From the IMG/VR virus record IMGVR_UViG_3300046660_000219, positions 1 through 64,000 of that record: 64,000 bases of DNA; one strand, written 5' to 3'. The translations under genes were made by a program, and so were the position numbers. The notes below the pieces were generated by a model. It searched no databases. It was not told the origin of the DNA and saw only the letters and a list, made by a program, of their open reading frames with translations. Below are positions 7,927-62,794 of this stretch, one piece after another; the stretch's first letter is position 1, and each line of letters opens with the position of its first letter. This DNA comes from a virus.

Positions 7927-7936
7927 GTAAATTAGC
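7927..7936 (-). promoter_or_regulatory. Promoter-like box GCTAATTTAC (leftward)
   Basis: Minus-strand GCTAATTTAC 90 nt upstream of ATG 7836. It is identical to the plus-strand boxes at 28437 and 49441. Confidence 0.6.
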
Positions 7937-27474: not shown

Positions 27475-28107
27475 ATGCAAGTGACTAACCCTATTCGCGG
27501 CAGCGCGAGCATGCAGACTTTTGCTGCTGAGCAAAAGCTTATCCAGGCTATCCGTGAATCCGAACATCCGGAACTCTTTGTAATCAACAATTCGGACCTG
27601 CCGGATCATCATAACCGGCCTACGGATCAGCAAGGCACTATCCTTATGCGGTGTTCGCAAAAAGGTATCAATGGCGATCACCGTATTCGTATACCGTCGT
27701 CGTTTGTGCCAATCCAACTTACCACACAGAGCCCGTGCACTAAGGACGATCTTCTAGCGTCGGCCGATCTGGCGCGCCTGCGCCAGACTAAGCGTATCAA
27801 GCTGATTAGCTATGAAGACGCTATGGACATCATCGATAAGGATGGTGAGTCCCGAGCTGAATACGATCGCGTCATGGCTATTGCTATGCGCATCGGTGAT
27901 TATACCGGTGCTGATACACAAGGTAACATTGGTGAGCCTACGGAGATTTCGCAAATCAACGGCCACCTGGAAACGGTTGTCGATGGCTATAAGAGCGGGG
28001 CTATGAGCCTGCCTCGCCTACGTGCCGAGGTGCGTCGCATGGAGCGTACGCTTAACCTTGAAGATATGGCTTACCTTAACCGGGAAGTTCCCGATTGGAA
28101 CAACTAA
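27475..28107 (+). CDS. Unknown soluble protein
   Basis: 210 residues with a GGAG ribosome site. A short N-terminal helix is followed by a β-rich core (LFVINNSDLPDHHNRP...) and a helical, charged C-terminal half. Stand-alone transcription unit with its own upstream box. Virion or early host-takeover roles are both possible; nothing discriminates. Confidence 0.7.
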   Translation: MQVTNPIRGSASMQTFAAEQKLIQAIRESEHPELFVINNSDLPDHHNRPTDQQGTILMRCSQKGINGDHRIRIPSSFVPIQLTTQSPCTKDDLLASADLARLRQTKRIKLISYEDAMDIIDKDGESRAEYDRVMAIAMRIGDYTGADTQGNIGEPTEISQINGHLETVVDGYKSGAMSLPRLRAEVRRMERTLNLEDMAYLNREVPDWNN

Positions 28108-28112
28108 TTTAG
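28103..28112 (+). promoter_or_regulatory. Promoter-like box ACTAATTTAG for the structured RNA
   Basis: It overlaps the stop codon of the preceding gene and ends 2 nt before the first stem of the RNA candidate. Confidence 0.5.
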
Positions 28113-28113
28113 T

Positions 28114-28345
28114 AGCGTGAGATACCTTAACGAGACCGTCCCTCTCGGTTTAAGGTAGTCGCTATCTTCGGATAGCGATTGGTTGATCGGTGGCTCAACC
28201 TCTCACCTTTTAGAGCGGCCAGTAAAGGCCGCTCGGACGACGCGTGAGTATGCAGCAGTAGGTCCACTTGCTTTCCCCTCAGCAGGTTCGGTATAACTGG
28301 TCTGGCGCTCGTGTAGCGCTTATACTCACGCGTCGTCTTACAGTT
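28114..28345 (+). ncRNA. Structured non-coding RNA candidate
   Basis: There is no ORF of note, but stem pairing is dense. Domain 1 (28116-28206) is closed by GTGAGA/TCTCAC and contains three hairpins: TACCTTAA+CGAGA with TCTCG+TTAAGGTA; TCGCTATC-TTCG-GATAGCGA (a UUCG tetraloop); and GGTTGA/TCAACC. Next is GAGCGGCC-AGTAAA-GGCCGCTC (28213-28234). Domain 2 is a perfect 16-bp stem, 28236-28251 with 28322-28337, enclosing about 70 nt with a GCGCT/AGCGC hairpin and a repeated CAGCAG. A promoter-like box precedes it and a terminator follows. It is not a recognisable tRNA (no T-loop consensus) or a known riboswitch to my eye. Confidence 0.65.
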
Positions 28346-28379
28346 AGTGTTCTAGTCTCCTGTGAAGTCCCTCACCTCA

Positions 28380-28412
28380 AAGCCCGTCAGGCCTCGTGCT
28401 TGGCGGGTTTTT
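28380..28412 (+). terminator. Rho-independent terminator (copy A)
   Basis: AAGCCCGTCA with TTGGCGGG(TT) and a GGCCTCGTGC loop, then TTTTTT. Its 28-nt core is identical to the terminator at 62707. Confidence 0.88.
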
Positions 28413-28436
28413 TCGTGTCCGTACACTTAGCATTTA

Positions 28437-28446
28437 GCTAATTTAC
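28437..28446 (+). promoter_or_regulatory. Promoter-like box GCTAATTTAC
   Basis: Identical to boxes at 49441 (+) and 7927 (-). A GGAACG/CGTTCC stem-loop follows, then ATG 28508. Confidence 0.6.
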
Positions 28447-28507
28447 TGTAGAACGGAACGCTACCCGCCGACGTTCCCACTGTTTTGTTATTCAAGGTTT
28501 CGAGCCT

Positions 28508-29530
28508 ATGAAGGACTCTCGTTCGTTTGAGGCTGTGACGCGTGAATTGCGTAGGCAAGAAGCCGTTGGCGAAAAGGTAATCGCTAGCATCAAGGCTTTC
28601 CGTCCAGCAGGCAAGGCCAAGATCACCTTGGCTAACGCTAGTATCATGCTCGGTAATGCCGAATCCGTGATGCGTGAAGTCTCCACGCTGCGCGACGAGC
28701 TACGCCTCAATGCGTTTGCGGTTGAGGCGCGCTATGTCCAGCGTAACGCGATTGATCTGGATACCCTTTACGACAATCTGTTGGCCGCCGCTAACGATCT
28801 AGTCGAAAAGGCCAGCCCGATAGCGCCACTGGGTGCGTGCACTGACGTTATCGATACCGTTACTGCGGCATTGGTAAACGGTGGTCAAAACTGGGCTGCG
28901 CGTACGTCGGCTTTTTCTGAAAGTCCGACGACATCGTTCATCATCGCTACCTATACACGTCAGCCTTATACGGATGGCGATAACAAGTTGGTGGTGATTG
29001 TGTCGGTCGAGTATCCAGACACCGGTTATGCCCCGACGTCGGCCCGCTACGCGCTCAGCGTCCTTTACGGACCACTTGAGGCCTATGTCTGGGAAGCCAA
29101 CGTTGTGCACCGTAGCTTCAGCGTCAACCTGGGTGCTGCTAGCAGCACTATTGGTACACGTGCCGCTGACATCATCGCTAGCCGCCTGGAACGTGATGAC
29201 GTGACTCTACGATTTAATCGTAGGTTCAAGCAACCACGTCGCGCTAACGAGATTCGTGCCGATGACATCTGCGGTATGAGCATTCTACCGTTAGCTATCA
29301 CCGATATGGACGAGGAGCGTTGTCTTCTTACTGTCGGTGTTGATCTGCCTGGATTGATCAGCCCTACGTCGCTAGTTGCACTAGGTAGCGAGATCAAGCG
29401 GCGCACGATTAACCAGCTTGGTATCCGCGATATCAACGTCACGGATGAAGCTACACTTGTTATCGGCTTTGTCCCAGAGACGGATATGTCGTTGGCGGCC
29501 GAGCGGATCAAGAAGCTAGCGCAACGATAG
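28508..29530 (+). CDS. Unknown protein, probable virion or large-complex component
   Basis: 340 residues. The N-terminal ~115 are helical (coiled-coil-like, LRDELRLNAFAVEAR). The rest is α/β with strands such as NKLVVIVSVEYPDTGY. No enzyme motif. It starts a cluster (28508-31481) of similarly sized, strongly translated genes without nucleic-acid motifs, which suggests structural proteins. Confidence 0.7.
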   Translation: MKDSRSFEAVTRELRRQEAVGEKVIASIKAFRPAGKAKITLANASIMLGNAESVMREVSTLRDELRLNAFAVEARYVQRNAIDLDTLYDNLLAAANDLVEKASPIAPLGACTDVIDTVTAALVNGGQNWAARTSAFSESPTTSFIIATYTRQPYTDGDNKLVVIVSVEYPDTGYAPTSARYALSVLYGPLEAYVWEANVVHRSFSVNLGAASSTIGTRAADIIASRLERDDVTLRFNRRFKQPRRANEIRADDICGMSILPLAITDMDEERCLLTVGVDLPGLISPTSLVALGSEIKRRTINQLGIRDINVTDEATLVIGFVPETDMSLAAERIKKLAQR

Positions 29531-35563: not shown

Positions 35564-38500
35564 ATGTACGTTGACAAGCTTGGCGGTGATGTTTCGCACA
35601 CCGCGCTTTCGCTGGCTATGCCTGAGCATGCTCCGCTTCCCACGCGCGATAGGGAAATCGCCCTTACAAAGGGTAAGAACAAAACTCCGCGTACGGCTAT
35701 TGGTAAGGACATCGCAGCGAAGAACGAAGAGACGGCGCGCGAAGTCCATAACTCCTTGCGTCAGATTGGTCTTACCGTCGCCTATGCTAGCTTAACCGTG
35801 GCTACGTTCCTGCGTGGTGCTGGTTTACGTAGTCTAGATGATCGTGGTCAAGAAGTCGGTACGCTGCGACGTGAAACGGATCACGATCCGCAAAAGGCTA
35901 ACTCCATCGCGGCTGGCGCACTGTCTGCGGAAAGCTTGTTCAAGCACGCGGCATATGATGACGATACTATTACGTTCACGATGGGCAAGTTGAACGGCGC
36001 GGCGTCGATCATTATCGATCCCTATTCGGATAACTTCGAAACGGTAATCAAGCGTGTCCTCCCGGCGTACAACAAGCCGGTTGGTTACGAGAAAGCTGGT
36101 TACAGCTCGGTCAACCTCGATTTCGGTGACAAGACTGACGAAGATTTCGATCTTACCATTGCGTATGACGATCTAGTCAAGGCTATTCAAGGTACTGGTA
36201 TCGAACTGGACACGCCGCTGTTCTGTGGCAAAGCCAAGCTACCGAAAGGTGTGCGAATCGATATCAACCTGCAAGGGTCTATGCGCGCTAGTGTACAAAC
36301 GGTAACGTCATTCCCGTCGCTAGCGTCCCTGACTAATGGTAAGGGTAGCATAACGTCGAATATGTACGCCATCATGCCTGTCGTGGCCACCGTGAAGGTG
36401 ACTGTGCCAAAGGCCTGGGCGATGTGGGCGACGTACGCGGATAATGATTCCGAATTCGTCCCTACTCTGGCTATGTCGCACTTCTCTACTCTTCTGGCAA
36501 CCGCTGTCGGTACCAAAGGTGGTCGTAGCAACGGCATTACGAAGCGTGATCCGTTCGACAAGGAGAACGAAGCGAAGTTTGCGAACAACTTTGCCAAGAT
36601 CAGTGCGCGTATTAGTAACGTCGCCACGGCTAAGCGCCTAAATCAATCCCGTGCGAAGGTGCTGGGTTTTGAGGCTAAAATCCGTACCAATAAAGATGGC
36701 TACGCCATTCTTCCTAACGGCGAGTTGTGGTTCATTCCGCCGACCGACAATGTCGCGGAATTCGTCAAGCTTTCCAAGGAAGCTTCGGACGGCACGATTG
36801 ATGGTTCGCGCTTCGACTACCCGTCGCGTATCCTTTACGTCGATGCGGTCAACGAAGTCCTCGTGCACACTACGGCGTCATCTACCATTCATACGGTGGA
36901 CTTGCGCGGTAGTCGGCCGCTCGATGACATCTCGCAAGCTAAGTACAGCGCGACCTGGGCGTTAAACCCTACGGCGCTCAAGCACCTGTCGCTGTTTAAC
37001 GGTGCGGATCTTCCGGTCCCGGCTGCATTTATAGCTAGCCTTATCCGCAACAACAACAAAAACAACGAAGTACTAGCCAACGTCCCGTATTTCGCTGATC
37101 TCTGGCGACCTATTCCGGAGAACGGTTCACATGCGGGCGCATCTGCCATGCAAGCCGGTGACTGGTCGCAGCTCATCCGTCTAACAGACGGCAAGAATAC
37201 CTATATGATCAGTGACCCGGCAGAGCGTGAGCGTCTGTTGGGTATCTTGGCGCTTAAGCGTAGCAACGCTGATGTTGATCAAGAAACTGTATGGGCTGCG
37301 GAAAATCGTGTCATCGGTGCGATCCACGAAGCCGCCTTGGCCTTCACCACGGAAGCTCAAAAGTTTGCCGCTAGCGGTGGCCTAGAGCTGAACATGCCGG
37401 AAGGCGCACACAGCGTTTCGACCACGAACCAAGTGCGAATTGCGCTGTATGCGTTTACCCATTTGCTGTCGCGTTGGCCGGAATGTGAATCTAAGCGTCA
37501 GCGCAAGTTCTACGCCAACACACCCAAACCTCTTGATCGCATGGCTTTGAAAGACAAGCCTATTGCGATCCCAAACGTCGATATCGATACCGGTCTGTCG
37601 TACCTTTTCCCACACCAAGCGGAAGTGGTCCAGAACATCGATATCGCTGATCCGCCGGAAGCTGCGGTAATTGGTGGTGCGCCTGGTTTTGGTAAGACCA
37701 ACGTCATCATGGCGGACGTGTTGCTCTTGCTACAAAAAGGTAAGATCAAGCGCCCGCTGGTCGTTGTTCCGAACAAGTTGGAAGGCCAATTTATTAGCGA
37801 GATCAACCGCTTCACTCGCGGTCGGGTCAACGCTTACTGCGCCACCTTCCAAAACCTCAAGGACATGCAGTCGCCAGACGGCCTAAACTTCTCCTATGAA
37901 GAGACCGTCAAGTTCCTGCGCGATCTACCGCCGAATACCATTTTGGTTACCAACTACAACACGCTGACCAACAGCTTCTCGCAGTTCCCGCAACTGTATG
38001 ACTCGATGGCGGCGTACGATACGGTAGGCACGACGCAACAGCTCATGTCGTTCCCGTTCGTGGACATGTTCTATGCGGCGGGTGTGGACTACGTGTGCGG
38101 CGACGAGAGCCACAAGGTCAAAAACCTTAAGGCTGGTCGTGGTCAAGCGTTCTTAGCGCTTTGCGCCAAGGTCGATTACATCCGTCTGTCTTCCGGTACT
38201 ACCGTTAACAACGTGGTTTCTGACCTCGTTGGCCAGATGCAGAAGATCAATCCGCTGGCGCTGGGTGCATCGGTTGAGGCTTTCCAGAAAAGGTTCTTGG
38301 GCGGTGACAAGCAAGTCACTCGTGCAAGCCAAGCGGAAGACATCACCGAAGCCATGCGTGAATACGCTATGGTTATCCAAAAGGATAGTCGTAGCTGGGC
38401 GTACATGTTGCCGCCGTTGACGGAAATCTATCACCGCGTCGAGTTGACGACGCTGCAAGCTCGTTACTACGCCATTCTATTTTACAAGATGGCCGCGCTG

Positions 38501-41467
38501 ATCGAACGAGACGCTGCAAAGCGTAAGATCGATCTGCGTGAAGAGGACGATCTTGACAGCGGCGGACGTGGTAGGCGTCGGCGTCGTCCTAGTGACGATG
38601 AAATGGATGATGCTTCGCCGGAACAGTCGAAGCGCGACTCTATCATCGAAGCCATTTCGGCACGCCATTTCGGCGTGATCGATCGCTTCGTCAATTCGCC
38701 TGATACCTTTGTTGACTTCGTTGATGGTTCGTGGACCGCCGATGAAGAAGACGTGCGTCGGGCAAAGTTGAAGATGGATCCGCTTAGCCCAACTGAGCGC
38801 GCTTCTTGGCCGGCTATTGTTCCAAGTGACAACGACCTTGTATCGGTGAAGGCCAAGTGGGCGTATACCCTTATGTACGCCCACTTCAACATGCACGGTG
38901 CTCTTGCCGAAGTGCAGGCTAACCCTGGCTCGGCCAAGTTCCGCGCCGACCCTGAAAACAAGGTCATTACCCTTTCGCCGTACAAGGTTACCGGCACGCA
39001 CCTTTACGACAAGATGCCTGCTGACCTGAAAGCGATGACTGTCCGCTACCAAGCTGGTAACTTCGTGGAGGTTGAGCGCTTCAAACGCGACGACAAGATT
39101 AAGATTGTCGTCGCTGATGAGATCTCGATCACCGAAGGCCATAATCTACAAATGGCCTCGCGTACTATTCGTATGCAGGGCGTCTGGACGCCGGGCTCTG
39201 AAACTCAGGCCCTTGCGCGTACCCGTCGCCCCGATCCGGGTGGTAAGCGTCAACGATTGGGCTACGATCACATCGTGGCTACTCTTCCTGGCGCTAACGC
39301 TGGCGAAACCAAGCCTACCATTGACGATCTGCGTACTGCCCGTTTGTTAGCTAAGAAACTGTCTAACTCGCGTGTCGAGTTCGGTTACGAGCTGTCTTAT
39401 CAACGTGCGGTCGGTCAGGTTGTGTCGGCACTGCCGCCGGTCAAGATGAGCATGAAGAACATCGAGGAGTTCAAGACCGAACAACTTGCTGCTTACTTCG
39501 ATGCACTTACTCGCCTGAACAACTGGATGTACGACAGTTCGAAGGCGATGACCAAGCAAATTGGTAAGGAAATCTTCGAGGCTACAGGCGAACAGGTTAT
39601 CGATGAAAACGGTAATCCTATCGACCTCGGAAAGTTCGTCGCTGCTGCTGTCGTCAAGACCGCTGCTGCGCCGGAACTGCCCGGTTCGCGTCGCTCCTAC
39701 GTTCCGTGGGTTGGTGGTTCTGAACCTATCAACCCACTCGGCTTTGAAATGATACCGGTACGATCGGCCACACCGATTTCGCTGGAGGATGACGAAGACG
39801 ACGGTGACGAAGGCGATGACGATGATCTAGCCTATGAGCGTATTTCCAACAACGTCGAGATTGATATCGGCACTTATGTGATGACCGAATACGGTCCCGG
39901 TATCGTTTCGCGCGTTGGTCGCCGTAAACGTGGTTCTTGGGCTGCTGCGGATGACATGTCGCCCGATGCTTTCCACGACGCGTCGTTTTACTATATCTCG
40001 ATCCCGTCTATTCGTAATGGTAAAGAAGCGCTGAACGTCCGTCTTGCTGCCAACCGCATCTTCGTCCCCGTTGATGATAATGGTAAGAAGATGTTGCGTG
40101 ACGCGATTAAGAACCGCACAAGCACGATGGCTCCTGTGCCTAATCCCATCACGGGTAAGCAGGTAGAGGATGCGCGCGACCGTAAGGCCGGTCGCAAAGC
40201 GGAAGAAGATCGTCGCTCGAAAAATCCGTCTGATGATGGATCGTTCGCCGACTATTCCGCGCCGACCGCTGATGACTTCGACTTCGACGACGAAGACTTT
40301 GATTTCATCGTTGATGACGAAGACGAGGCAGCCGATCCCGTCGATATCCTCGCGGATATGCTTGATGAAAACGGTAACATTGACTTCAGCGATGAGGTTG
40401 ATGACGACGAAGACGAGACAGACGACCAAGCCGACGATGAAGAAGAGTTCTACGGTTTCGCTCTAGCCATCAACGGCCAACTGGCCTTGTTGGTGGACAG
40501 TGAAAGTCAGGAAGACAACGCCCTGGACGGTATTATTTCCGACTATGGCTTCAAACGCTTCCCGAACTTCACCCGTCTGCACATCAAAACCAAAGCGGCT
40601 CTAGACGCTGTGCTTACACGTCTGGCTAAGAAACGCTATGTCATTCCGCCCCAAAACATGGCTGAAATTCAAAGCCTTGCTAAGGGTTTGACGCAGCGTG
40701 GTGCGCTGAAGCAAACGGAACCGTTCAACTTCCGCGAAGTCACGAACTTCATGATGACGGAGCAACGTCGCGTGCCGGCTGGTACTAATGGTACGAAGCC
40801 GTTCCGTGTCTACGCTCTTGTTCAGCACGGGCTGTTCTATCTTGTCGCCTCTACGGACAAACATCCGTTCCGCGTCAAGCAAGCCTTTACTGATGCTGCC
40901 GCTGGTGTTGCTGGTGTCGGCAAAATCAAGGATTTCTACAACCAAGCTGTTATGTTCGTGAAAAACAAACGGCAAGCGCAAACCGTCGCGAATAACCTCA
41001 TTTCTGCTGGCCTGATCAGCAACGAAGAGGAGTTCCTGTCGGATCTAGCGGAATTCCGTGTCGGCGGTCCTGCTGCCGGCCTACTGAGTCCGCCGGAACG
41101 TGAAGAGCCGGCGGTACCTAAAACGGTACCGACGCCAAAGGCTCCCGTGCCTGCGCAAGTGACTAGCGATTACAGAGAAGGGCCTAACAACCCTGACGTG
41201 GAAAATCTCGCTGAGTTCCGTAACTTCCTGCAAGCCAATAAACCGGTCATGGTGCTCGTTAAGGGTACAATGCTGCCTACGGGCGTGCCTTACATGGTCA
41301 AGGGCTACAGTAACGGAGAGTTCGCGCTCTCGAATCGCAAGAACCAAGCGCGCGACGACTACGAGATGTTCCATGTCCCGGGTAAGGCCGACGTCAGGTT
41401 CGACAACACCAAGGGCCTGATGTACGTCGGAAAAACTGTATGGCGTCTGTCCTATACGGCGTCTTAA
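35564..41467 (+). CDS. Giant SF2/SNF2-type helicase (1967 aa)
   Basis: Walker A GAPGFGKT (~705-712), DEAH-type box DESHK (~847), motif III-like SSGTT (~877) and motif VI QALARTRRPD (~1213-1222) make a complete SF2 core with SNF2 character. Around it are a ~600-residue unknown N-terminal region, an acidic Arg-flanked insert (~1000-1030), acidic linkers (~1405-1425, ~1570-1630) and ~330 C-terminal residues with a repeated small β-domain feel (ALAINGQLALLVDSES, VYALVQHGLFYLVAST). The size is extreme. Such proteins are sometimes virion-associated and injected, or remodel replication forks; both are inference. A large stem-loop follows the stop. Confidence 0.88.
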   Translation: MYVDKLGGDVSHTALSLAMPEHAPLPTRDREIALTKGKNKTPRTAIGKDIAAKNEETAREVHNSLRQIGLTVAYASLTVATFLRGAGLRSLDDRGQEVGTLRRETDHDPQKANSIAAGALSAESLFKHAAYDDDTITFTMGKLNGAASIIIDPYSDNFETVIKRVLPAYNKPVGYEKAGYSSVNLDFGDKTDEDFDLTIAYDDLVKAIQGTGIELDTPLFCGKAKLPKGVRIDINLQGSMRASVQTVTSFPSLASLTNGKGSITSNMYAIMPVVATVKVTVPKAWAMWATYADNDSEFVPTLAMSHFSTLLATAVGTKGGRSNGITKRDPFDKENEAKFANNFAKISARISNVATAKRLNQSRAKVLGFEAKIRTNKDGYAILPNGELWFIPPTDNVAEFVKLSKEASDGTIDGSRFDYPSRILYVDAVNEVLVHTTASSTIHTVDLRGSRPLDDISQAKYSATWALNPTALKHLSLFNGADLPVPAAFIASLIRNNNKNNEVLANVPYFADLWRPIPENGSHAGASAMQAGDWSQLIRLTDGKNTYMISDPAERERLLGILALKRSNADVDQETVWAAENRVIGAIHEAALAFTTEAQKFAASGGLELNMPEGAHSVSTTNQVRIALYAFTHLLSRWPECESKRQRKFYANTPKPLDRMALKDKPIAIPNVDIDTGLSYLFPHQAEVVQNIDIADPPEAAVIGGAPGFGKTNVIMADVLLLLQKGKIKRPLVVVPNKLEGQFISEINRFTRGRVNAYCATFQNLKDMQSPDGLNFSYEETVKFLRDLPPNTILVTNYNTLTNSFSQFPQLYDSMAAYDTVGTTQQLMSFPFVDMFYAAGVDYVCGDESHKVKNLKAGRGQAFLALCAKVDYIRLSSGTTVNNVVSDLVGQMQKINPLALGASVEAFQKRFLGGDKQVTRASQAEDITEAMREYAMVIQKDSRSWAYMLPPLTEIYHRVELTTLQARYYAILFYKMAALIERDAAKRKIDLREEDDLDSGGRGRRRRRPSDDEMDDASPEQSKRDSIIEAISARHFGVIDRFVNSPDTFVDFVDGSWTADEEDVRRAKLKMDPLSPTERASWPAIVPSDNDLVSVKAKWAYTLMYAHFNMHGALAEVQANPGSAKFRADPENKVITLSPYKVTGTHLYDKMPADLKAMTVRYQAGNFVEVERFKRDDKIKIVVADEISITEGHNLQMASRTIRMQGVWTPGSETQALARTRRPDPGGKRQRLGYDHIVATLPGANAGETKPTIDDLRTARLLAKKLSNSRVEFGYELSYQRAVGQVVSALPPVKMSMKNIEEFKTEQLAAYFDALTRLNNWMYDSSKAMTKQIGKEIFEATGEQVIDENGNPIDLGKFVAAAVVKTAAAPELPGSRRSYVPWVGGSEPINPLGFEMIPVRSATPISLEDDEDDGDEGDDDDLAYERISNNVEIDIGTYVMTEYGPGIVSRVGRRKRGSWAAADDMSPDAFHDASFYYISIPSIRNGKEALNVRLAANRIFVPVDDNGKKMLRDAIKNRTSTMAPVPNPITGKQVEDARDRKAGRKAEEDRRSKNPSDDGSFADYSAPTADDFDFDDEDFDFIVDDEDEAADPVDILADMLDENGNIDFSDEVDDDEDETDDQADDEEEFYGFALAINGQLALLVDSESQEDNALDGIISDYGFKRFPNFTRLHIKTKAALDAVLTRLAKKRYVIPPQNMAEIQSLAKGLTQRGALKQTEPFNFREVTNFMMTEQRRVPAGTNGTKPFRVYALVQHGLFYLVASTDKHPFRVKQAFTDAAAGVAGVGKIKDFYNQAVMFVKNKRQAQTVANNLISAGLISNEEEFLSDLAEFRVGGPAAGLLSPPEREEPAVPKTVPTPKAPVPAQVTSDYREGPNNPDVENLAEFRNFLQANKPVMVLVKGTMLPTGVPYMVKGYSNGEFALSNRKNQARDDYEMFHVPGKADVRFDNTKGLMYVGKTVWRLSYTAS

Positions 41468-47790: not shown

Positions 47791-49429
47791 TGCGATGACC
47801 AGTCAGGTTAAGGCGCGCAAAGATACGATTCACAAGTACGTGGATCGCATCGGACCTGACACCCACGGTTCAGCCAAAGCCGATGGCTCATCGTTGCAGA
47901 TCGTCAACGTCAAAGGCGTCAAGAAATTGTACTCTAGAGGTGACGCCAAGACCAATACCGGTCAAGACGTTAGCCATCTAATACCATTGTTGAAGATTGG
48001 TGAATGTCCGCCCGGTTACGCGATCCGCTTTGAGTGCGTGCTGACACGCGCGGCCTTTGAGCAAGTAAAAGTCATCACCAAGGGTAAGCGCATCAAGGAT
48101 TACACAGCGGCGCGTAACGTGGCGTCCAGTGGGATCGTCAACAACTCCCGCCCAGACCCTGCGATAGTTGCTCTCGCGTCTTGCCCGGCTTTTACTATTT
48201 ACAAGCCGAAGATGACGCCGCGCCAAGCCTTCGCCAGACTAGTTGAGCTGGGTTGGGAAGTGCCGCTCAATCAACCAATCACCGATCTGTCCCCTAGAGC
48301 ACTAACCCTATTGCTGAAGACGTGGGAGCGTACCGTTCCGTACGACATCGACGGTATCGTGCTGTCAAAGAACGTGCACGAAGCGCCAGTAGCCGGTAGC
48401 AATCCGCACCACAGCGTTGCGTTCAAGGTAGATAAGCCGCCACAAAAGGTAGTTGTCAGCAAGGTTGTTTGGGAGGCTTCACAATATGGTAGACTCAAAC
48501 CAGTCGCCCATTTCGTTACACCCGTCAACCTCAACGGAGCCGAGGTCAGTAAAGCCACCGCTCACGACGCAAGAATGGTTCGCACTAAACGTATTGGGCC
48601 AGGAGCAGAAATCTTCATTATTCGGTCCGGGGAAGTTATTCCGAAGATCGTCGGTGTAGCCAAGCCTGCACTTAAAGCGTCGTTCCCTAAAAAGGGTACG
48701 TACACGTGGAACGGTGCGAACATCGAGGCAGTGGGTGACAACTACCGGGCCGAGATCCTGACCCGTCAGCGTGTAGCGTTCTTCGCCGACATCGGCGTGC
48801 TTGGCCTAGGCGAGTCCGTGGCGTCCAAGCTGACGGCCCTGTCGATCCCAGAAATCGCCCGCAAGAGCCCGATTGAGCTACGGGCGCTGGGTGTGGGCCA
48901 AGCGGACTCAGTAAAGCTCCCAGCGGCCATTAAAAAGGCCCTGGAGACGACCTCCATGCCACGGCTCATGGCCGCGTCGTCGGTGTTTGGTTCTGGGTTC
49001 GGTCTGACCAAGGCCAATGCTGTGTGGGCTGTGCTAAAAGGTAACCCACCTAAAACCCGCGCGGAGCTTGTCGAACGCGTGGTCGCGCTGCATGGCTTCT
49101 CCAAGGTATCCGCTGAGTCGTTCGCCGCACGTTATGCGCAGTGGCTAAAGTTCCTCAAGGACTTACCCTTTAAACCGATCGTATCTGGCGGCTCTGGTAA
49201 ATTGGTCGGTAAGCTGTATGCGTTTTCCGAGTTCCGCGACAAGGAGCTGGAGAACTTCATCATAGACCAGGGTGGTCAAGTTAAAGGTAGCGTATCGAAA
49301 GCAACAACTGCTGTGTTCGCCCCTCCCGGTGCTAACAGCACTAAAGCGCAAAAGGCTAGATTGCTACAGGTGCCAATCGTACCGCCTAGCCAAGCGCGCG
49401 ACTTTATCGGGTATGAGCCTAAACCATAG
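47576..49429 (+). CDS. NAD+-dependent DNA ligase (LigA-type)
   Basis: 617 residues. KADG with active-site Lys101, then YSRGDAKTNTGQDVSHLIP (motif III region), DGIVLS and VAFKVDKPP (motifs IV-V), EIFIIRSGEVIPKI (OB domain), HhH-type helices (~405-530) and a C-terminal BRCT domain (~545-617). It seals nicks at Okazaki and recombination sites. Two departures from cellular LigA: the four-Cys zinc finger between the OB and HhH regions is missing, and the N-terminal Ia domain is short. Start ATG 47576 follows AAAGGGAC. It lies in the fibre region, far from the other replication genes. Confidence 0.9.
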   Translation: MARTYSFKTKAEAARFKPTYEAANNAFHNGDSIMLDSDFEALKEALLPWYPEIESHIGATQNASARMVPLPNAMTSQVKARKDTIHKYVDRIGPDTHGSAKADGSSLQIVNVKGVKKLYSRGDAKTNTGQDVSHLIPLLKIGECPPGYAIRFECVLTRAAFEQVKVITKGKRIKDYTAARNVASSGIVNNSRPDPAIVALASCPAFTIYKPKMTPRQAFARLVELGWEVPLNQPITDLSPRALTLLLKTWERTVPYDIDGIVLSKNVHEAPVAGSNPHHSVAFKVDKPPQKVVVSKVVWEASQYGRLKPVAHFVTPVNLNGAEVSKATAHDARMVRTKRIGPGAEIFIIRSGEVIPKIVGVAKPALKASFPKKGTYTWNGANIEAVGDNYRAEILTRQRVAFFADIGVLGLGESVASKLTALSIPEIARKSPIELRALGVGQADSVKLPAAIKKALETTSMPRLMAASSVFGSGFGLTKANAVWAVLKGNPPKTRAELVERVVALHGFSKVSAESFAARYAQWLKFLKDLPFKPIVSGGSGKLVGKLYAFSEFRDKELENFIIDQGGQVKGSVSKATTAVFAPPGANSTKAQKARLLQVPIVPPSQARDFIGYEPKP

Positions 49430-49440
49430 CCTAACCTTCG

Positions 49441-49450
49441 GCTAATTTAC
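49441..49450 (+). promoter_or_regulatory. Promoter-like box GCTAATTTAC
   Basis: Perfect match to the consensus box, 11 nt after the ligase stop. The hairpin with T-run at 49460 comes right after, which would put a terminator-like stem in the leader of ATG 49582. Confidence 0.55.
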
Positions 49451-49459
49451 TATTGAGCA

Positions 49460-49494
49460 AGCGCGCTGGGTTCACCGCTCAGCGCGCTTTTTTG
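49460..49494 (+). terminator. Rho-independent terminator or leader attenuator
   Basis: AGCGCGCTG / CAGCGCGCT (9 bp) followed by TTTTTT. It would end ligase transcripts. If the box at 49441 is a promoter, it could also attenuate its transcripts. Confidence 0.85.
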
Positions 49495-49581
49495 TTGTCT
49501 AAATCACAGGCAAAATAGTATAGTGCTTGCTAGTCACGGCCAGACTGAGCCTATACTTAAGCCATCACTATGGGACGAATA

Positions 49582-50136
49582 ATGAGCTACGTAAGAGACA
49601 TAACAGAACGCACCATGCACGAGATAGCTGACCATTTTGGGCCTAAGCCCTTGACGCAAACTGATCTGGCTAACTATTGGAACGCCAGTGCTGTTGCGCC
49701 GCGAAAGGCTATGAAGCTGGACGTTACCGCGCGCCTAGCGCAAACAGGTGAGAAGGTCGTTACTACTATTAACGGTAAGGTGGAGACGGTAAATATCGCC
49801 AAGACTGAAAGCGTCGTAGTACGCAATCAAACAGGCGAAGAGTATATTCTGCCGTACTCTACCTTTAAAGATCAATACAGCGGACCACCAGTTAATGGAA
49901 CCTATCAGGAATACGAAAGCATCGGCTTCCGCTATGTCATGCCGTACGATGGCAACGCTACGCAGCTAGAGGCGTCGTGGGGTGAATTGCAGACGTTAGA
50001 GCCCGGCGACATGCTAGGTTGCCTGACTTCTGGTCCTAACGGTGACATCTACCGTATCGCCTACGACGCCTGGAAAGACGGTTACAGTTTCATCGATGAC
50101 GGAACTACCGACCCGCGCCTTAAGCTTACGGTCTAG
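49582..50136 (+). CDS. Unknown protein with MSxVxDI N-terminal tag
   Basis: 184 residues from ATG 49582 (GGGACGAATA upstream). The first 20 residues (MSYVRDITERTMHEIADHF) match those of the Nudix-like protein at 50675. The rest is β-rich with an acidic C terminus. Function unknown; possibly a cargo or targeting peptide on different bodies. Confidence 0.7.
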   Translation: MSYVRDITERTMHEIADHFGPKPLTQTDLANYWNASAVAPRKAMKLDVTARLAQTGEKVVTTINGKVETVNIAKTESVVVRNQTGEEYILPYSTFKDQYSGPPVNGTYQEYESIGFRYVMPYDGNATQLEASWGELQTLEPGDMLGCLTSGPNGDIYRIAYDAWKDGYSFIDDGTTDPRLKLTV

Positions 50137-52123: not shown

Positions 52124-52252
52124 ATGAGCAAACTCACTAGACGCTCTGTTGTGCATGGTAGCAGTGCTACCGTTTTACGCTCCGCTATTAATGGCGCAGT
52201 CCTTGTTTCTGCCATAAATGGTAAATTGTTGACTAGTGCTCGGAGCACCTAA
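52124..52252 (+). CDS. 42-residue peptide MSKL-type, copy 2
   Basis: ATG 52124 to TAA 52252. Begins MSKLTRRSVVHGSS and has the same length and position as the peptide at 45104. It ends 1 nt before the SGNH gene at 52254. Sequence similarity is confined to the first ~10 residues and the general β-prone composition. Confidence 0.62.
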   Translation: MSKLTRRSVVHGSSATVLRSAINGAVLVSAINGKLLTSARST

Positions 52253-52253
52253 C

Positions 52254-53798
52254 ATGACCGTTCTAAACGAACTTGAATTGGCTTCTGCTGGTGGGGCTAC
52301 GGCTGCTAGTGTTCGTCAGCGGGCTATCTTGTCGGCACTACGGTTTACGCCTGGGGTATTGCCGCTGGCGGCTTCCGCTCCTACCGTAACGGTAGCTACT
52401 AACGGCACAGCGACAATCACCAGTACGGTTGACGTGTCAAAGACTACACCTAACACAACGATACCTGTAACGAATGCGAAAATCGCTACTGTTGGTACTC
52501 CGTTGAGAGCTGTGAATTCACAGCTTTTCATGGGTAATAGTATTCAACAAGATGCCGCTAACACCGCGACATCGCGTCGGTCCAATCGACAGCGTTATCG
52601 TTTTTTGTTTGACGGTCCAGTGTTTGAAGCCGCTTTTACCAATCGCCAGGGTCGCGTTTGCATCATGGTCGATGGTGAGATGGTGTTCAATGCTCAAACA
52701 GAGCCGCGTCTCCCTATACAGTTATTGAACGACCAAAATGCGTCATTGGTAAAGGTAGATTTCGGTACTAACACGCCGTCTCTTTACGCGTCCTTCGTTC
52801 AAAACAACGGCGCGCCCGCCGTTGGTGGTAGCGGTTACGTGGTAGGCGAAGTTATTACTATGACAGGTGGGACTTTTACTGCACCTGCAAAAATAAAGGT
52901 AACAGCGATAAATGCCGGTGCCGTGCTCTCGGGGCAGATCGTAGATCCTGGCATTTATTCAGTGTTCCCAAACAATAACGTCGCACAGGGATCAACCACA
53001 GGGTCTGGGACTGGTGCGACGTGGAACCTAGTCTCTAGTGCTAGACATTCGGTACGACGTATGCGCCGTATTGAAATTATAACGTCTGGCGATAACTATC
53101 AGCCATACGTGATAGGTATCAATGTTGGTGCACAAGATTGCGTGCAGCCGTGGCCCGTAGTTGGTCCGCGCATCCTGTTCCTTGGTGACAGTCTTGTCGC
53201 TAATACCTTTTCTGACTGGCCGACTGGTGGTTTTGCGGATCTATCTGGTCAGTTTCTTGGCCTGGATGACATCTGGATTTCTGGTCGCAGCGGCGAAGGG
53301 TATTTGCAGCAAGTTAGTGGCGTCAAGTTGCGTGATCGCCTAATCAACGATGTGTACGCATACACCCCGGACATCATTGTTACCTGCATGGGCTACAATG
53401 ATAAGGCGCAAGATCCTACGGCGCTACAAGCCGAGGTGCAGGCCTGTCATGCTGACCTTCTAACCAATCTGCCCAATGCATTCCATTTCGCGATGAACGC
53501 CCATCGTGATTACTTAACTAGCCTTACTCCTCCAGCTAACGTCACAAATGCTATCGCAGCCGGTATTAATGCGGCCTACGCATCTTATGCTAATCGGGCG
53601 CGATTTATCGACAGTGTAGCCTTGGGTTGGGATGTTGGTGGTAGTGGTACCGTAAAAGCACCGACTGGTGTTGGTACGAGTGATTTCTGGATATCCAGCG
53701 ATACACTGCACATGACGCAGGCTGGCCACGAGCGCCGCGCCTACTTGCTAGCGCAGGCTATCTACTCAGCTTCGCGGTCTATTCTGCTGAACATCTAG
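52254..53798 (+). CDS. SGNH-hydrolase adhesin with shortened tag
   Basis: 514 residues from ATG 52254. Start MTVLNELELASAGG is a partial form of the N-terminal tag. β-rich N-terminal half. SGNH domain: ILFLGDSLVANT (Ser), VTCMGYNDKA (the GxND block), and DTLHMTQAGH at the end (Asp-His). It is a presumed carbohydrate esterase or adhesin. Confidence 0.8.
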   Translation: MTVLNELELASAGGATAASVRQRAILSALRFTPGVLPLAASAPTVTVATNGTATITSTVDVSKTTPNTTIPVTNAKIATVGTPLRAVNSQLFMGNSIQQDAANTATSRRSNRQRYRFLFDGPVFEAAFTNRQGRVCIMVDGEMVFNAQTEPRLPIQLLNDQNASLVKVDFGTNTPSLYASFVQNNGAPAVGGSGYVVGEVITMTGGTFTAPAKIKVTAINAGAVLSGQIVDPGIYSVFPNNNVAQGSTTGSGTGATWNLVSSARHSVRRMRRIEIITSGDNYQPYVIGINVGAQDCVQPWPVVGPRILFLGDSLVANTFSDWPTGGFADLSGQFLGLDDIWISGRSGEGYLQQVSGVKLRDRLINDVYAYTPDIIVTCMGYNDKAQDPTALQAEVQACHADLLTNLPNAFHFAMNAHRDYLTSLTPPANVTNAIAAGINAAYASYANRARFIDSVALGWDVGGSGTVKAPTGVGTSDFWISSDTLHMTQAGHERRAYLLAQAIYSASRSILLNI

Positions 53799-53844
53799 TA
53801 GTGTAGATTACCATTACGCTCTAAACAATATAGGAGTTACAGCT

Positions 53845-54642
53845 ATGAGTGCGGAGCGTTTCATTGAGACCGCCGATTGTCATGGTTTCCAAGCCTATTC
53901 GCTGCATGATGTGCTAAACGGTAGAGAAGACGATGCCAAGCGCGCGTTAATCACTGCCGGTATGGAAGTCAGTGACGGTGCTAGCGGTGCAGCTCTGGGT
54001 ATGGGGTGGCTTGAAGCCGCCGCTAGTCACTACAATGTCTCGCGCGATCCGAAAGACTACGTCATTGCACCGGTTAGCATCCTCGTTTCGGGCATGCCTA
54101 ACCGCAATGGTGTAGCATTTCCTTTGCGCGAGCTTGCTGCGTTCGACGTCGAATACAAGCAAATGGCTTACGAGACGTGGACCCGCTCGCCGGTGTTCTA
54201 CGAACACGCCAACGAAGATCACACCAAAGCACTCGGCGTGATCTTCGACACGACGATGCGTCATGCGCCAGAATTCGCTGGAGACGTACTATTTCGTGTC
54301 AATGCGTTGTGTGGTGTTGACCGTACGCGTGCACCAATGCTGGCTAATCGTGTTTTGACAGGTAACCTTAAGACGTGGAGCATGGGTGCTAGCGTTGCGC
54401 AGTATCAGTGCTCGATCTGCGGTCACAAGCCGACCAAGACCAGCCGTCGCTGTGAGCATATGAGCCTGGACAACAGGCAAATGCGTACCTTTGTTGGTGC
54501 ATCCGGTCGCCCCCCTAAGCTCGCTCACTACACGTGCGCGGGCATTCGTGGTTTCGAGACTTCGATGGTTGAGATTCCCGCTTGGGCTTCAGCGCAAAAT
54601 GAGCCTAATCAGCTCATGTCGCTGTACTCCCCCGCCGACTAA
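53845..54642 (+). CDS. Prohead-protease-like protein with zinc-type Cys cluster
   Basis: 265 residues. PVSILVSGMPNRNGVAFP, YEHANEDHTKALGVIFDT (candidate catalytic His), and VNALCGVDRTRAPMLANRV then LKTWSMGASV follow the layout of capsid-maturation proteases that process the prohead core in large phages. CSICGHKPTKTSRRCEHM is an added CxxC...CxxH zinc cluster, which I have seen in such proteins. It is placed in the fibre region but with the head genes not far upstream. Family call by eye. Confidence 0.62.
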   Translation: MSAERFIETADCHGFQAYSLHDVLNGREDDAKRALITAGMEVSDGASGAALGMGWLEAAASHYNVSRDPKDYVIAPVSILVSGMPNRNGVAFPLRELAAFDVEYKQMAYETWTRSPVFYEHANEDHTKALGVIFDTTMRHAPEFAGDVLFRVNALCGVDRTRAPMLANRVLTGNLKTWSMGASVAQYQCSICGHKPTKTSRRCEHMSLDNRQMRTFVGASGRPPKLAHYTCAGIRGFETSMVEIPAWASAQNEPNQLMSLYSPAD

Positions 54643-54657
54643 TAAGGAAATAGTAAC

Positions 54658-56040
54658 ATGGCTACTGCCGTTTTGTCGGCTTCTGATCTCGCCACGGCGG
54701 GTGGTTCGATCAATCTTTCGACGCGTTTGCGTCGCCTTGCGGAAAGGGCTGCGCTAAGTAACCCTTTCGATACGCCGCCTTTGGTGGTTCCACCCGACTA
54801 CGCTAACTCTACGGCGCTCCTGCAAGGGCACGTCGTCAAGAGTGGCGGTAACATGTTCATGACGGTGACGGCTGGTACTACTGCATCTAGCGGTACGCCG
54901 TCTACAGCCAATGGTGACGCCAATACTAACGGTACGGCGGCCCTGGCTTTCATGGGACCTATACCGCGCACCGCCGACGATCCTAGCGCACCTACTGTTA
55001 CTTTCGTAACGAGTAACCCGGCGCTCGGCGTTGTCTGGGACCCGGTTGGTAATCCTACTCTTTATCGTGCACTAGGTGCTACGCCGCAAGCCTATCGTAC
55101 GTCTCTCTGGGAGCTGCGTTCTTTCGTCCCGGCTGCTAGTGCGGCTACTGTTTGTCGTAGCGCGGTCATTCAGACGATCGTGGACGATTTCAAGTTCGCT
55201 GTCTCCATCCCGTCGAATTCGCAAAGTGTGCGTATCGCTATTGACGGTCAATTCTACAGTGTGTCGAGCTGGAACCCTGGTGGTTCTGACTCCTGGGCTG
55301 TTTTTGACTACACCGGCAAAGCCGCGAAGAAGCATCGCCTCGTTAGTGTTTACACTAACAAGAGCACTAGCTATTTCGGTGGCGTGCAAACGACCACGGC
55401 TGGACAGATTCACACGCCACCCGTCTCTGACACCATCAGAATGGTAGAATGTGCTGACAGCCTTGGCGCTGGTGCTGGTCCTGGCCCGTGGGGTGCGGGT
55501 AACGCCCCGGCTGTCGCTTTCGGTTCGATGATCGGCGTCGAAGATGTGTGGGTGCTGTCTACCGGCTCGACCGGCGACATCGCTAACGCTACTAACACTG
55601 CGTACAATTACGCAGAGCGCGTTCCGCAGATCATTGCTCTCGCGCCGCATATCATTTGGATACCGACATCGACTAACGATCTCGTGTCCACTACGAGTGC
55701 GGTTACCGCCGCACGTGTCGCTACGCTGCAAGCGTTACGCGCTGGTTTGCCTAACGCAATCATCGTCAATGAAGGTATCTGGCCCGTTCTGAACGGTGGT
55801 AACACCGCTGCTGTGACGGCACTAGAGAACGCTGTAAAAGCGGCTCACGATACCGTTGTTGACGCGCGCATGTTCTGGGTTCCGCGTGCTACTGAAACGC
55901 CGCCGTGGATCACCAGCAACAACCGTGGTTGGAACATCGCGGCCGACGGCATTCACCCGCCTGACGCGGGTTCGTTGTACATCGCCCGTCAGCGTGCGCT
56001 CGCTTGGCGTCGCTACGTCCTACCGTTCTTGCAAGGCTAA
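54658..56040 (+). CDS. SGNH-hydrolase adhesin with N-terminal tag
   Basis: 460 residues. Tag MATAVLSASDLATAGG, then a ~260-residue β domain, then SGNH: VECADSLGAGAG (GDSL with Gly replaced by Ala), IPTSTNDLVS (block III) and DGIHPPDAG (Asp-His). Leader AAGGAAATAGTAACATG. First of five tagged SGNH genes in sequence. Confidence 0.8.
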   Translation: MATAVLSASDLATAGGSINLSTRLRRLAERAALSNPFDTPPLVVPPDYANSTALLQGHVVKSGGNMFMTVTAGTTASSGTPSTANGDANTNGTAALAFMGPIPRTADDPSAPTVTFVTSNPALGVVWDPVGNPTLYRALGATPQAYRTSLWELRSFVPAASAATVCRSAVIQTIVDDFKFAVSIPSNSQSVRIAIDGQFYSVSSWNPGGSDSWAVFDYTGKAAKKHRLVSVYTNKSTSYFGGVQTTTAGQIHTPPVSDTIRMVECADSLGAGAGPGPWGAGNAPAVAFGSMIGVEDVWVLSTGSTGDIANATNTAYNYAERVPQIIALAPHIIWIPTSTNDLVSTTSAVTAARVATLQALRAGLPNAIIVNEGIWPVLNGGNTAAVTALENAVKAAHDTVVDARMFWVPRATETPPWITSNNRGWNIAADGIHPPDAGSLYIARQRALAWRRYVLPFLQG

Positions 56041-56060
56041 CGCACAAAGGAAATACTATT

Positions 56061-57389
56061 ATGACAACTGCGGTCCTTGCTGCTTCAGATTTAGCCACGG
56101 CTGGTGGTGCGTTAGCTAACGGGTCGCGCTCGTTCACTGGTACGCGCGTCTATACGGGCATGGGTGTAACTGCGTCTACCGCCTATCCTGGCTACACTTG
56201 GCAACAAATGGTAGCTGCGCCTGGACCTTTTGACGCTGTGCGCTTGATTTTCGCCAACACTACCAACGCTGCCGTGACGATTGACGCGGTGTGTTGCGGC
56301 GCTACGTCTAGCATTGCCGCTTATGATAACGTCTCAGGTACGGGTGTCAGCGGTCGTGCGGCACAATGGGTGCTAGGGAAATTTACAGCACCGGGAGCGG
56401 CTAGCACAACGGCTGGTGTAATGCCTGCCAACACCAACGCTGACATTACGGTAGAAGCGCTGGCGGGTGGTGCTACCTTTGCTACCATTCCTTCGCTCTT
56501 CTATTCCGACTGGATGGCTTGTGAGAGTGTAGCGCGCACGGATGGCGGTACAAAGCCGTTGGTTTTGGTGCGCGCTTACATTTCCCAGGCTGGTGCTATT
56601 CCGCTGTTTGGTACGAACTCATCGATCCCGGATTGGGATGACGAGACCAAGATCGGACTGGTTATTCAGAACCGACAGAAGGTGAATGACTTCGTCACCG
56701 TTAACAACGGTAGCTACACTTTTGCCGGCGAATTCCCGAACAATCCCATTCTTGGCGTTGAGTTCGCCATGCGCGTTCCTACTATTACGATGGTAGGCAT
56801 TGGCGATAGTAAGGTGCGCGGTCAGGCCAGCACGCCTGACGGCTACAATTATATGGAGATTTTAGCTAACTCTGTCAGCACTTTGACGGCTCCTGTCATA
56901 CCGGCCATTTACGGATGGGGCGGCCAACAGACGTCGTACAATTTCTCGCGCTGGCAGAAGCTTATTGCGGCTGGTATCAAACCACAAATTGCGATCTTCT
57001 CGCCGTTCTCTCAGAACAACTGGACAGGTACGGCCAGCCAAGTGTCGTCGGCGCAATATGCTACTATTCAATTCGTACGCTCCTGTTGCGAACGCGGTAT
57101 CTTCCCTATCCTCGTGACCGGCGAACCTATTGGTGCGGTTGACGACAGCAGCCCTACTCTACAAGCAGATAATGCTAGAAAGCTGGTGAACACTTTCATC
57201 CGCAATCTTGAGAGCACTTACGTGGGTGTCTTCGACAACGCAACGGTTATGGGTGACGGTGCTACGCCAGAACGGTATAAGCCATCTATGGTTAGCTCTG
57301 ACCACGTGCACCCCAACCTTGTCGGTCATCAAGCTGCCGCTACAGCGGCGTTGCCGAAACTGCAAGCGATCCTCGCGCGTATTCGCTAG
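56061..57389 (+). CDS. SGNH-hydrolase adhesin with N-terminal tag
   Basis: 442 residues from ATG 56061. Tag MTTAVLAASDLATAGG; β-rich middle; TMVGIGDSKVRGQA (Ser); no clear GxND block (SPFSQNNW stands in its place); SSDHVHPNLVGH (Asp-His). This makes it the most aberrant catalytic set of the row. Leader AAAGGAAATACTATTATG. Confidence 0.78.
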   Translation: MTTAVLAASDLATAGGALANGSRSFTGTRVYTGMGVTASTAYPGYTWQQMVAAPGPFDAVRLIFANTTNAAVTIDAVCCGATSSIAAYDNVSGTGVSGRAAQWVLGKFTAPGAASTTAGVMPANTNADITVEALAGGATFATIPSLFYSDWMACESVARTDGGTKPLVLVRAYISQAGAIPLFGTNSSIPDWDDETKIGLVIQNRQKVNDFVTVNNGSYTFAGEFPNNPILGVEFAMRVPTITMVGIGDSKVRGQASTPDGYNYMEILANSVSTLTAPVIPAIYGWGGQQTSYNFSRWQKLIAAGIKPQIAIFSPFSQNNWTGTASQVSSAQYATIQFVRSCCERGIFPILVTGEPIGAVDDSSPTLQADNARKLVNTFIRNLESTYVGVFDNATVMGDGATPERYKPSMVSSDHVHPNLVGHQAAATAALPKLQAILARIR

Positions 57390-57410
57390 CACATTCAAGG
57401 AATAAATAGT

Positions 57411-58571
57411 ATGACCACAGCAGTTCTCGCCGCGACGGATCTATCTAAGGCAGGCGGCGCGCTAAGGCAGTTTCGCGCGGCGTTCTCCAAAACCGGTACG
57501 CTGGGAAATACCGATACTACCGGTATTTCGGATGGTGTGGCCACTTCAGAAACCAGTCGTGATGTCTTCATGTCGCCGCCGTATCAAGTTAGCGACATTC
57601 AACTGTGCTTCAGCAATATCTACATCAACTCATCCGGCGAAGCTGTCACTACTAACGACATAACGGTACAAGCGAACGTCGAGATCGCAGGTGTGTCTTA
57701 TCCGCTGTTCCAGGCCGGTCGCCGTAACATGGTGCTGGAGCCGGGTGCGGTTGACGTACCGTTTGATCCACTAGCCATCGACATTCCCGCTAACACTGCG
57801 ATGTACTATCGGGTCTACGTTAGTGTTTCGTCTGGTGGCGTGTGGCCGCGTGGGCGTTTCGGCCGCCATAATCGCGCAGGCGGTATTACTGCTGGCGCGA
57901 ACTCTACGGCGGCTATTGGTACGCTACCTAACGATCAAGGCCAGTACATTTACGGTCCCAGCCTAGTGCTAGGTCGTACCGTTGGTAACTCGGCTCCTAG
58001 TGTTCTTGTTGTTGGTGATAGCCTCGTGGCTGGGCAAGGTGACACTGGCGACGCTAACGGCGCAGTCGGCTTCGCGGAACGCGCACTGACTGGTGTAGTA
58101 GGTTACACTACCCTTACCAAGTCCGGCTATCTGATGACGTCGCTCACCAACTCGCACACGCGGTCGCTGGCGCGCTGCACGCAGTTCTGCTCATCGGCCA
58201 TCTTGGAGCTTGGCTCTAACGATATTTTCGGCTCGCACGTCAACCTTGCCACCATGCAAAGCCGTGCGGCGGCTGGTGCCGCGCTCCTGAAGAATCGTGG
58301 TCTCAAGGTCTTTATGACTACTATTATGCCACGTTCGAGTGGCGGTGTGTCGGCTAACCCTACCGATAGCGCAACCACGGCGGCGTACAATGATTGGCTG
58401 CGCCTAGGTCAGTCATTCATGGACGGTCTGTTCGACATTGCTGACATCTGTGAGACGACGCGGAATTCGGGTCTGTGGAAGCCGGCGCTGCAACCGGGTG
58501 ATGGCATTCACCCCAACGGTGCTGGTTACGCTACTATTTCTGCGGGCATAATCACCAGTCAATTGGTCTAG
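57411..58571 (+). CDS. SGNH-hydrolase adhesin with N-terminal tag
   Basis: 386 residues. Tag MTTAVLAATDLSKAGG; β domain; VLVVGDSLVAGQGD; AILELGSNDIFGS; GDGIHPNGAGY. All canonical catalytic blocks are present. Similar in the SGNH part to the 59636 and 61508 proteins. Confidence 0.82.
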   Translation: MTTAVLAATDLSKAGGALRQFRAAFSKTGTLGNTDTTGISDGVATSETSRDVFMSPPYQVSDIQLCFSNIYINSSGEAVTTNDITVQANVEIAGVSYPLFQAGRRNMVLEPGAVDVPFDPLAIDIPANTAMYYRVYVSVSSGGVWPRGRFGRHNRAGGITAGANSTAAIGTLPNDQGQYIYGPSLVLGRTVGNSAPSVLVVGDSLVAGQGDTGDANGAVGFAERALTGVVGYTTLTKSGYLMTSLTNSHTRSLARCTQFCSSAILELGSNDIFGSHVNLATMQSRAAAGAALLKNRGLKVFMTTIMPRSSGGVSANPTDSATTAAYNDWLRLGQSFMDGLFDIADICETTRNSGLWKPALQPGDGIHPNGAGYATISAGIITSQLV

Positions 58572-58594
58572 CCACACATAGAAAAGGTAGGATC

Positions 58595-58936
58595 ATGAAT
58601 GAGCGCCCGGTAATCCGCCGTTTGGCTAGTAAGGACGATCCAGAAGGCGTGACACGTTTTCGTTTCCCTTGTCCCGGCTGTGAGTATGGTCATTGGGTAC
58701 GTGTGAACGCAGCAGATTCTCCCAACTGGACGTGGAATGGCGACTTCGTGCGTCCTACCTTTTCTCCTAGCGTGCATGTCTTTCCTGGCGGCAGCCTGCA
58801 GACTAAAGCCGAAGGTGCGCGAGACGGCACGTGTCACAGTCACGTCATTGATGGCAACATACAGTTTCTTAGCGATTGCTGGCACGACCTCAAGAATCAG
58901 ACTGTGCCGCTACCGCCACTCGACTACGGAGATTGA
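58595..58936 (+). CDS. Zinc-type protein of the DUF6527-like group, copy 1
   Basis: 113 residues. FPCPGCEYGHWV, WTWNGDFVRPTFSPSV, CHSHVIDGNIQFLSDCWHDL and QTVPLPPL agree with a small Cys/His family I know as DUF6527; the name should be confirmed by an HMM search. Two Cys, two His and a Cys/His near the end could bind zinc. A related protein lies at 61125. Confidence 0.62.
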   Translation: MNERPVIRRLASKDDPEGVTRFRFPCPGCEYGHWVRVNAADSPNWTWNGDFVRPTFSPSVHVFPGGSLQTKAEGARDGTCHSHVIDGNIQFLSDCWHDLKNQTVPLPPLDYGD

Positions 58937-58939
58937 ACC

Positions 58940-59209
58940 ATGGCAGTTAAAGACGGCCGCACGCATAAGAGTAAAGCACATCGCAAAGCTATTTCAGACG
59001 GTCTACGCGCTTACCACGCCAACAAGAAGTTGGGTGCTTACTACAAGCTCGATTCTCCAAGTAAGTGGCGTAAAAACCTAAAGAGTTCTATGGCAAAGCT
59101 AGAGCGTGAGATTAAAAATAATTCCGCTAGAGGGCTGCCAGCAAATAGAGAAAAGGCTATGCTGGCCAGTTATGCCAAGCTGCTGGCTAAAGGCCCTCCT
59201 AGCAATTAA
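58940..59209 (+). CDS. Small basic protein
   Basis: 89 residues, about one quarter Lys/Arg, start 3 nt after the previous stop. Helical and charged (KKLGAYYKLDSPSKWRKNLK), without the W..SP motif of the next gene. It may bind nucleic acid or act in the tail tip. Unknown. Confidence 0.65.
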   Translation: MAVKDGRTHKSKAHRKAISDGLRAYHANKKLGAYYKLDSPSKWRKNLKSSMAKLEREIKNNSARGLPANREKAMLASYAKLLAKGPPSN

Positions 59210-59227
59210 TAATAGGATTAGCAAATT

Positions 59228-59623: not shown

Positions 59624-59635
59624 GGAAATAGTAAC

Positions 59636-60880: not shown

Positions 60881-60881
60881 G

Positions 60882-61112: not shown

Positions 61113-61124
61113 AAGGTTATGTAA

Positions 61125-62689: not shown

Positions 62690-62706
62690 ACGCTAACTTT
62701 GGATTT

Positions 62707-62740: not shown

Positions 62741-62794
62741 AGTGCCTATACCGTAAGCTATAACGCAATTATGCCGAAAAGCTAACCGTATAAG

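Follow-up and report, generated by a model that had tools for sequence, protein, structure and literature searches.

The segment analysed here lies on the + strand in a 400-nt gap (28108-28507) between two genes of a 206-kb jumbo phage. The window, to which our coordinates refer, is a stretch of 64,000 nucleotides that makes up bases 1-64000 of a virus record 205,908 bases long; positions beyond it are given as record positions. The upstream gene (27475-28107) encodes a match to phrog_17686 and ends in a TAA stop codon at 28105-28107, whereas the downstream gene (28508-29530) has no family match, and an AlphaFold model of its product, built from one sequence, reached a pLDDT of 34 and was uninformative. 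A head-tail connector gene lies ∼1.4 kb downstream of the gap.

Because of its portal, terminase, capsid, DnaB-like helicase, gyrase, and sigma-like genes, we place the phage, by sequence comparison, among the jumbo myoviruses apparently related to PaBG, Lauda, GR11A, and Yoloswag. By terminase, its closest relative appears to be Rhizobium phage RHEph12, at 35% across almost the entire protein. A portal alignment recognised 132 distant relatives in IMG/VR, the best of them ∼37% identical, and none in genome_contigs; as far as these comparisons reach, the lineage is isolated.

Other features of the genome were recorded alongside. Upstream of the portal gene, 35564-41467 encodes a protein of 1967 aa whose middle part matches helicase families. 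Six genes at 52236-62689 (starting at 52236, 54658, 56004, 57411, 59636, and 61508) each encode a product matching the GDSL/SGNH esterase family; four of these matches exceed the Pfam cut-off and two fall short of it. The genes may represent an expansion of glycan-deacylating tail proteins. Four tRNA genes are clustered on the - strand at record positions ∼107122-108496.

Predicted fold of the intergenic segment

The whole noncoding unit spans 28117-28412 and is laid out as a 229-nt core (28114-28342), a 40-nt tail, and a terminator. Our fold and pair-probability computations resolve its 5' part into a four-way junction domain (28117-28206) with almost no unpaired linker, comprising (i) the closing stem P1, GTGAGA/TCTCAC (28117-28122 with 28201-28206); (ii) P2 (28123-28157), which carries the C-rich loop CCGUCCC; (iii) P3 (28158-28179), which is capped by a C(UUCG)G loop; and (iv) P4 (28181-28200). 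The junction is followed by P5, a GGCC hairpin of the form GAGCGGCC-AGUAAA-GGCCGCUC (28213-28234, pair probability 1.0), and by the P6 arm (28235-28338, pair probability 0.97-1.0), which includes two smaller hairpins and a G-U extension. The core of P6 is an exact 16-bp inverted repeat (28236-28251 with 28322-28337) that encloses 70 nt and is the sole inverted repeat found in the region by our repeat search. Pair probabilities in P3, P5, and P6 are at least 0.97, and those in P2 are mostly at least 0.9, with 0.57 for the last pair listed. An earlier, sequence-only reading had picked out a three-hairpin junction with this closing stem and a UUCG arm, a GGCC-rich hairpin, and a perfect 16-bp stem around ∼70 nt, all of which recur in the computed fold at the same places.

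The 5' domain is predicted to be complete after 95 nt have been synthesised, while the 3' tail (28339-28378) is weakly structured in the partition function. Within this tail, CUCAC (28371-28375) can pair with GUGAG at the 5' end (28117-28121), which would provide an alternative global closure. Accordingly, P1 is predicted to be bistable in the full transcript, pairing with its local partner at ∼46% and with the tail at ∼51%. The alternative comprises 5 bp and would close the whole RNA as a ring just before the terminator, an arrangement that may be due to chance.

The same reading had called the segment unusually structured, and the minimum-free-energy computation agrees. On the + strand, 28103-28412 folds at -136.7 kcal/mol (z -7.8), and the core reaches z -8.2 against dinucleotide shuffles, none of 200 being as stable. 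Moreover, the longest perfect inverted repeat measures 16 bp, and none of 60 shuffles has one longer than 10 bp. In a genome scan with 280-nt windows (step 70) the segment is the strongest fold outlier, and in one with 240-nt windows (step 120) it ranks about tenth, the rank varying with window phase; among the noncoding gaps of this genome it comes first by fold (z -6.7). In the 280-nt scan, the second strongest outlier is a 168-nt gap after a capsid-like gene (record 66732-66899), which contains a terminator and several strong hairpins. Related genomes have several gaps that are equally or more extreme (105117-105357 in RHEph12; 68381-68636 and 70347-70796 in GR11A), so strong folding alone is not unique in the group.

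No coding ORF was found in the region, as had been supposed from the letters: it contains two ORFs of at least 40 aa, both with negative hexamer scores. We also considered whether the inverted repeats merely resemble RNA and belong to a DNA-level element, such as a cruciform, a replication or partition site, or a mobile-element remnant. The - strand is indeed strongly folded as well (-122.1 kcal/mol, z -6.2), as it would be for any inverted repeats; however, the + strand folds better, and the C(UUCG)G loop, a tetraloop that is stable in that strand only, exists in the + strand only. Wobble pairs contribute little to this strand asymmetry, since G-U pairs make up only 4 of 84. Further, the segment is single-copy in the genome and its region has no direct repeats of at least 10 nt, which disfavours a mobile element, and the cumulative GC-skew extremes, at 54 and 128 kb, lie away from it. 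The lack of direct repeats is also what was observed with regard to a CRISPR-repeat mimic (Racr), in which units resembling CRISPR repeats would be expected. Taken with these observations, a DNA-level element is very improbable.

Flanking element and terminator

The element CTAATTTA, a probable phage promoter box, occupies 28104-28111 on the + strand, where it overlaps the stop codon of the upstream gene and ends 5 nt before P1. A second copy (28438-28445, + strand) follows shortly after the terminator U run, upstream of gene 28508-29530. The 206-kb genome contains 13 exact sites, 10 of which fall in the 12% that is noncoding: those in the window are at 7928-7935, 22706, 28104, 28438, 49442, and 51227, and those in the rest of the record are at 72789, 84553, 100059, 107924, 114645, 126344, and 152554. 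Most copies lie 20-120 nt upstream of a same-strand gene, and CTAATTT is the top enriched upstream 7-mer (p ∼1e-10). The site at 28104 is preceded by A, whereas most of the other exact sites are preceded by G or C.

We infer that CTAATTTA serves a phage sigma factor as its promoter box. A homologue of PaBG gp118, which the PaBG authors assigned as sigma-70-type (PMC7412058), is encoded at record position ∼126603-127310. Pfam Sigma70_r2 did not match this homologue, and its 24% identity to gp118 is the one observation that suggests a putative sigma factor in this phage. Since four of the 13 sites (84553, 107924, 126344, and 152554) lie between inverted repeats of 7-15 bp, it is also possible that CTAATTTA acts as an operator or RNA-loop signal, instead of or besides being a promoter box. 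Hence, of the promoter-like box originally proposed to overlap the previous stop codon, the position holds and genome-wide upstream enrichment now backs it, whereas its identity as a promoter is best worded as probable.

The strong terminator proposed for the 3' border is firmly reproduced. It is an intrinsic terminator on the + strand (28379-28416), with a 14-bp stem (28379-28392 with 28398-28411) followed by a U run; the computed pair probability of the stem is close to 1. A fold from which this stem is barred is 22 kcal/mol less favourable, and in it the computation predicted no competing antiterminator. A near copy is present at 62707-62744 (95% over 38 nt). The stretch that contains it (62690-62862) continues with a one-mismatch copy of CTAATTTA, which makes this a repeated terminator-promoter module.

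Because one CTAATTTA precedes the fold and the second follows the terminator, the segment has the appearance of an insulated transcription unit. The order of element, structured RNA, terminator, and gene is, at the same time, the classic layout of a leader or attenuator, in which a cis-acting 5' element, either riboswitch-like or working by put-like processive antitermination, would control terminator readthrough into gene 28508 and the connector operon. P1 is predicted to be bistable and its alternative partner lies immediately before the terminator, which also fits such a leader. We nevertheless regard it as unlikely, because a terminator this robust meets no competing antiterminator and because gene 28508 has its own CTAATTTA after the terminator; moreover, Rfam riboswitch families did not match the segment.

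No terminator was found between gene 27475-28107 and the fold, so transcripts from upstream should run through it, and the RNA could also form part of a longer transcript by readthrough. This bears on a further explanation, namely that the fold is an intercistronic or 3' UTR stabiliser that shields the upstream transcript at its 3' end, with no separate RNA being made. For that purpose, however, the terminator hairpin alone would protect the 3' end, a UUCG-armed four-way junction exceeds the need, and CTAATTTA overlaps the upstream stop codon; we consider a stabiliser distinctly unlikely. In view of the fold statistics, the lack of coding, the enrichment of CTAATTTA and its presence on both sides, and the strong terminator, a transcription unit devoted to a folded RNA, as the first reading had suggested, is well supported, its start signal being the part that we infer.

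Search for homologues and for targets of the loops

Searches of the window against Rfam 15 returned no match at or above a gathering score, the best sub-threshold score being that of RybB (21.6 bits against a cut-off of 40), which covered the tail and terminator only. Neither ARAGORN nor Rfam reported a tRNA or tmRNA at the segment, and its four-way junction lacks tRNA loop sequences. The GOLLD and ROOL covariance models did not match the segment either. These searches concur with the initial impression that no tRNA, riboswitch, or known phage RNA is recognisable here. A retron noncoding RNA was tried as a candidate and rejected, the reverse transcriptase family RVT_1 being absent from the whole record while control searches matched.

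DNA similarity searches in phages and plasmids returned no homologue of the segment. Exact peptide patterns from the proteins of genes 27475 and 28508 found no relatives in viral_contigs, and an alignment of the head-tail connector gave three weak matches. A covariance model of the segment, built from a single sequence and thus of low sensitivity, matched only itself among 38 records and 162 other loci, so a diverged homologue may exist. Scans with 16-mers, 14-mers, and a stem-gap pattern yielded chance matches only. Furthermore, in PaBG and Lauda the gaps adjoining the phrog_17686 homologue contain no equivalent RNA (z -2.1 and -1.3, respectively). The segment is therefore presented as a candidate orphan, apparently new as a sequence family and of a known general kind.

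The pyrimidine-rich loops of the fold (CCGUCCC, UUCCCCUC, GUCUCC, and GUCCCUCACCUC) raise the alternative of a base-pairing sRNA that blocks phage or host Shine-Dalgarno sites. GUCCCU occurs twice unpaired, and its complement, AGGGAC, is present in 10 translation-start regions of the phage where 0.9 would be expected; complements of open 6-mers are likewise enriched in translation-start regions relative to those of paired ones (p 0.0015). However, compared with shuffles of the same loops the signal is not significant (p 0.12 and 0.055). An equal or higher score was also obtained for 9 of 81 other noncoding gaps, and the signal may thus reflect base composition. In addition, we conceived the test after seeing the loops. 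We consider this alternative improbable.

Proposed role and comparison with known phage RNAs

The reading that we prefer, with a probability of about 0.55, is that the segment is a stand-alone phage noncoding RNA gene, whose product would be a compact RNA with protected ends that acts in trans via protein binding. Transcription, in which a phage sigma factor probably guides RNA polymerase, would begin ∼5-6 nt downstream of CTAATTTA (near G28117) and end at the terminator around position 28412, so that the RNA would be ∼296 nt long. With its 5' end locked in P1 and its 3' end formed by the terminator hairpin, this RNA would probably be stable. It would fold in the order of its synthesis, namely, four-way junction, hairpin, and long two-branched arm. 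Speculatively, and from form alone, the RNA may bind a phage or host protein in trans and serve as a decoy, a scaffold, or a regulator. Being compact and having clear borders, such a jumbo-phage RNA gene is an easy target for expression analysis, probing, and pull-down.

Two distant relatives by portal and terminase, RHEph12 and Vibrio phage GR11A, also contain long, strongly folded noncoding gaps. That of RHEph12 (49176-49718) is 543 nt long, has an elaborate predicted fold (z -4.2 for the whole; z -6.2 for a 300-nt part) with no Rfam match, and is conserved at ∼90% in four sister phage records. While its structure is kept at 97.9% of cells among these relatives (3 distinct rows aligned), this retention is no proof of structure, because covariation in those three rows did not exceed that of shuffles (154/500). 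In GR11A, 1,175 nt without annotated genes (69827-71001) follow just after tRNA-Cys, with a minimum free energy of -399 kcal/mol and parts at z -8.2; the position is GOLLD/ROOL-like, but the stretch has no GOLLD, ROOL, or other Rfam match. Neither region shows covariance-model similarity to the RNA in the window, and both differ from it in gene neighbourhood.

Since RHEph12 and GR11A carry these other unclassified structured regions, structured noncoding regions may be a recurring habit of related jumbo phages. A bolder and rather doubtful proposal is that the segment is the first described member of a new RNA class and that jumbo phages of the PaBG/Lauda/RHEph12 assemblage habitually carry large, lineage-specific, stand-alone structured RNAs (∼300 nt, 543 nt, and 1.2 kb) that serve a common infection step and whose sequences can no longer be aligned. 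If unalignable units do recur across jumbo phages, comparative pipelines that depend on covariation would have missed them.

Few phage-encoded structured RNAs have been characterised, and those that are known, namely pRNA, put, and GOLLD/ROOL, are unusual. The phi29 pRNA is likewise a small structured phage RNA, and its size class, together with the head-tail connector gene nearby, is what commends the packaging-motor role that had been guessed for the segment. The guess finds no support: the terminase of this phage is of another type, being a large enzyme (806 aa) of the PaBG/RHEph12 kind, and its gene lies on the opposite strand at a distance of ∼81 kb; the phi29 gp16 family (PF05894) was not found in a search that had no positive control. 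To our knowledge, phi29 pRNA occurs only with a phi29-type motor, and we consider a pRNA-like function extremely improbable.

The segment resembles HK022 put, compared in layout and without sequence alignment, in being a structured phage RNA directly downstream of a promoter (here a probable one) and followed by a terminator. The put RNA works in cis, where it suppresses both pausing and termination (PMC9378689); in the window, by contrast, a new CTAATTTA follows the terminator. GOLLD and ROOL are elaborate, stand-alone noncoding RNAs of phages and prophages, with functions that are unknown (PMC12286853). Whereas they measure 600-800 nt or more, the RNA in the window is ∼300 nt long, does not lie beside tRNA genes, and has no Rfam match; like them, it is phage-encoded and is predicted to be elaborate, stand-alone, and noncoding.
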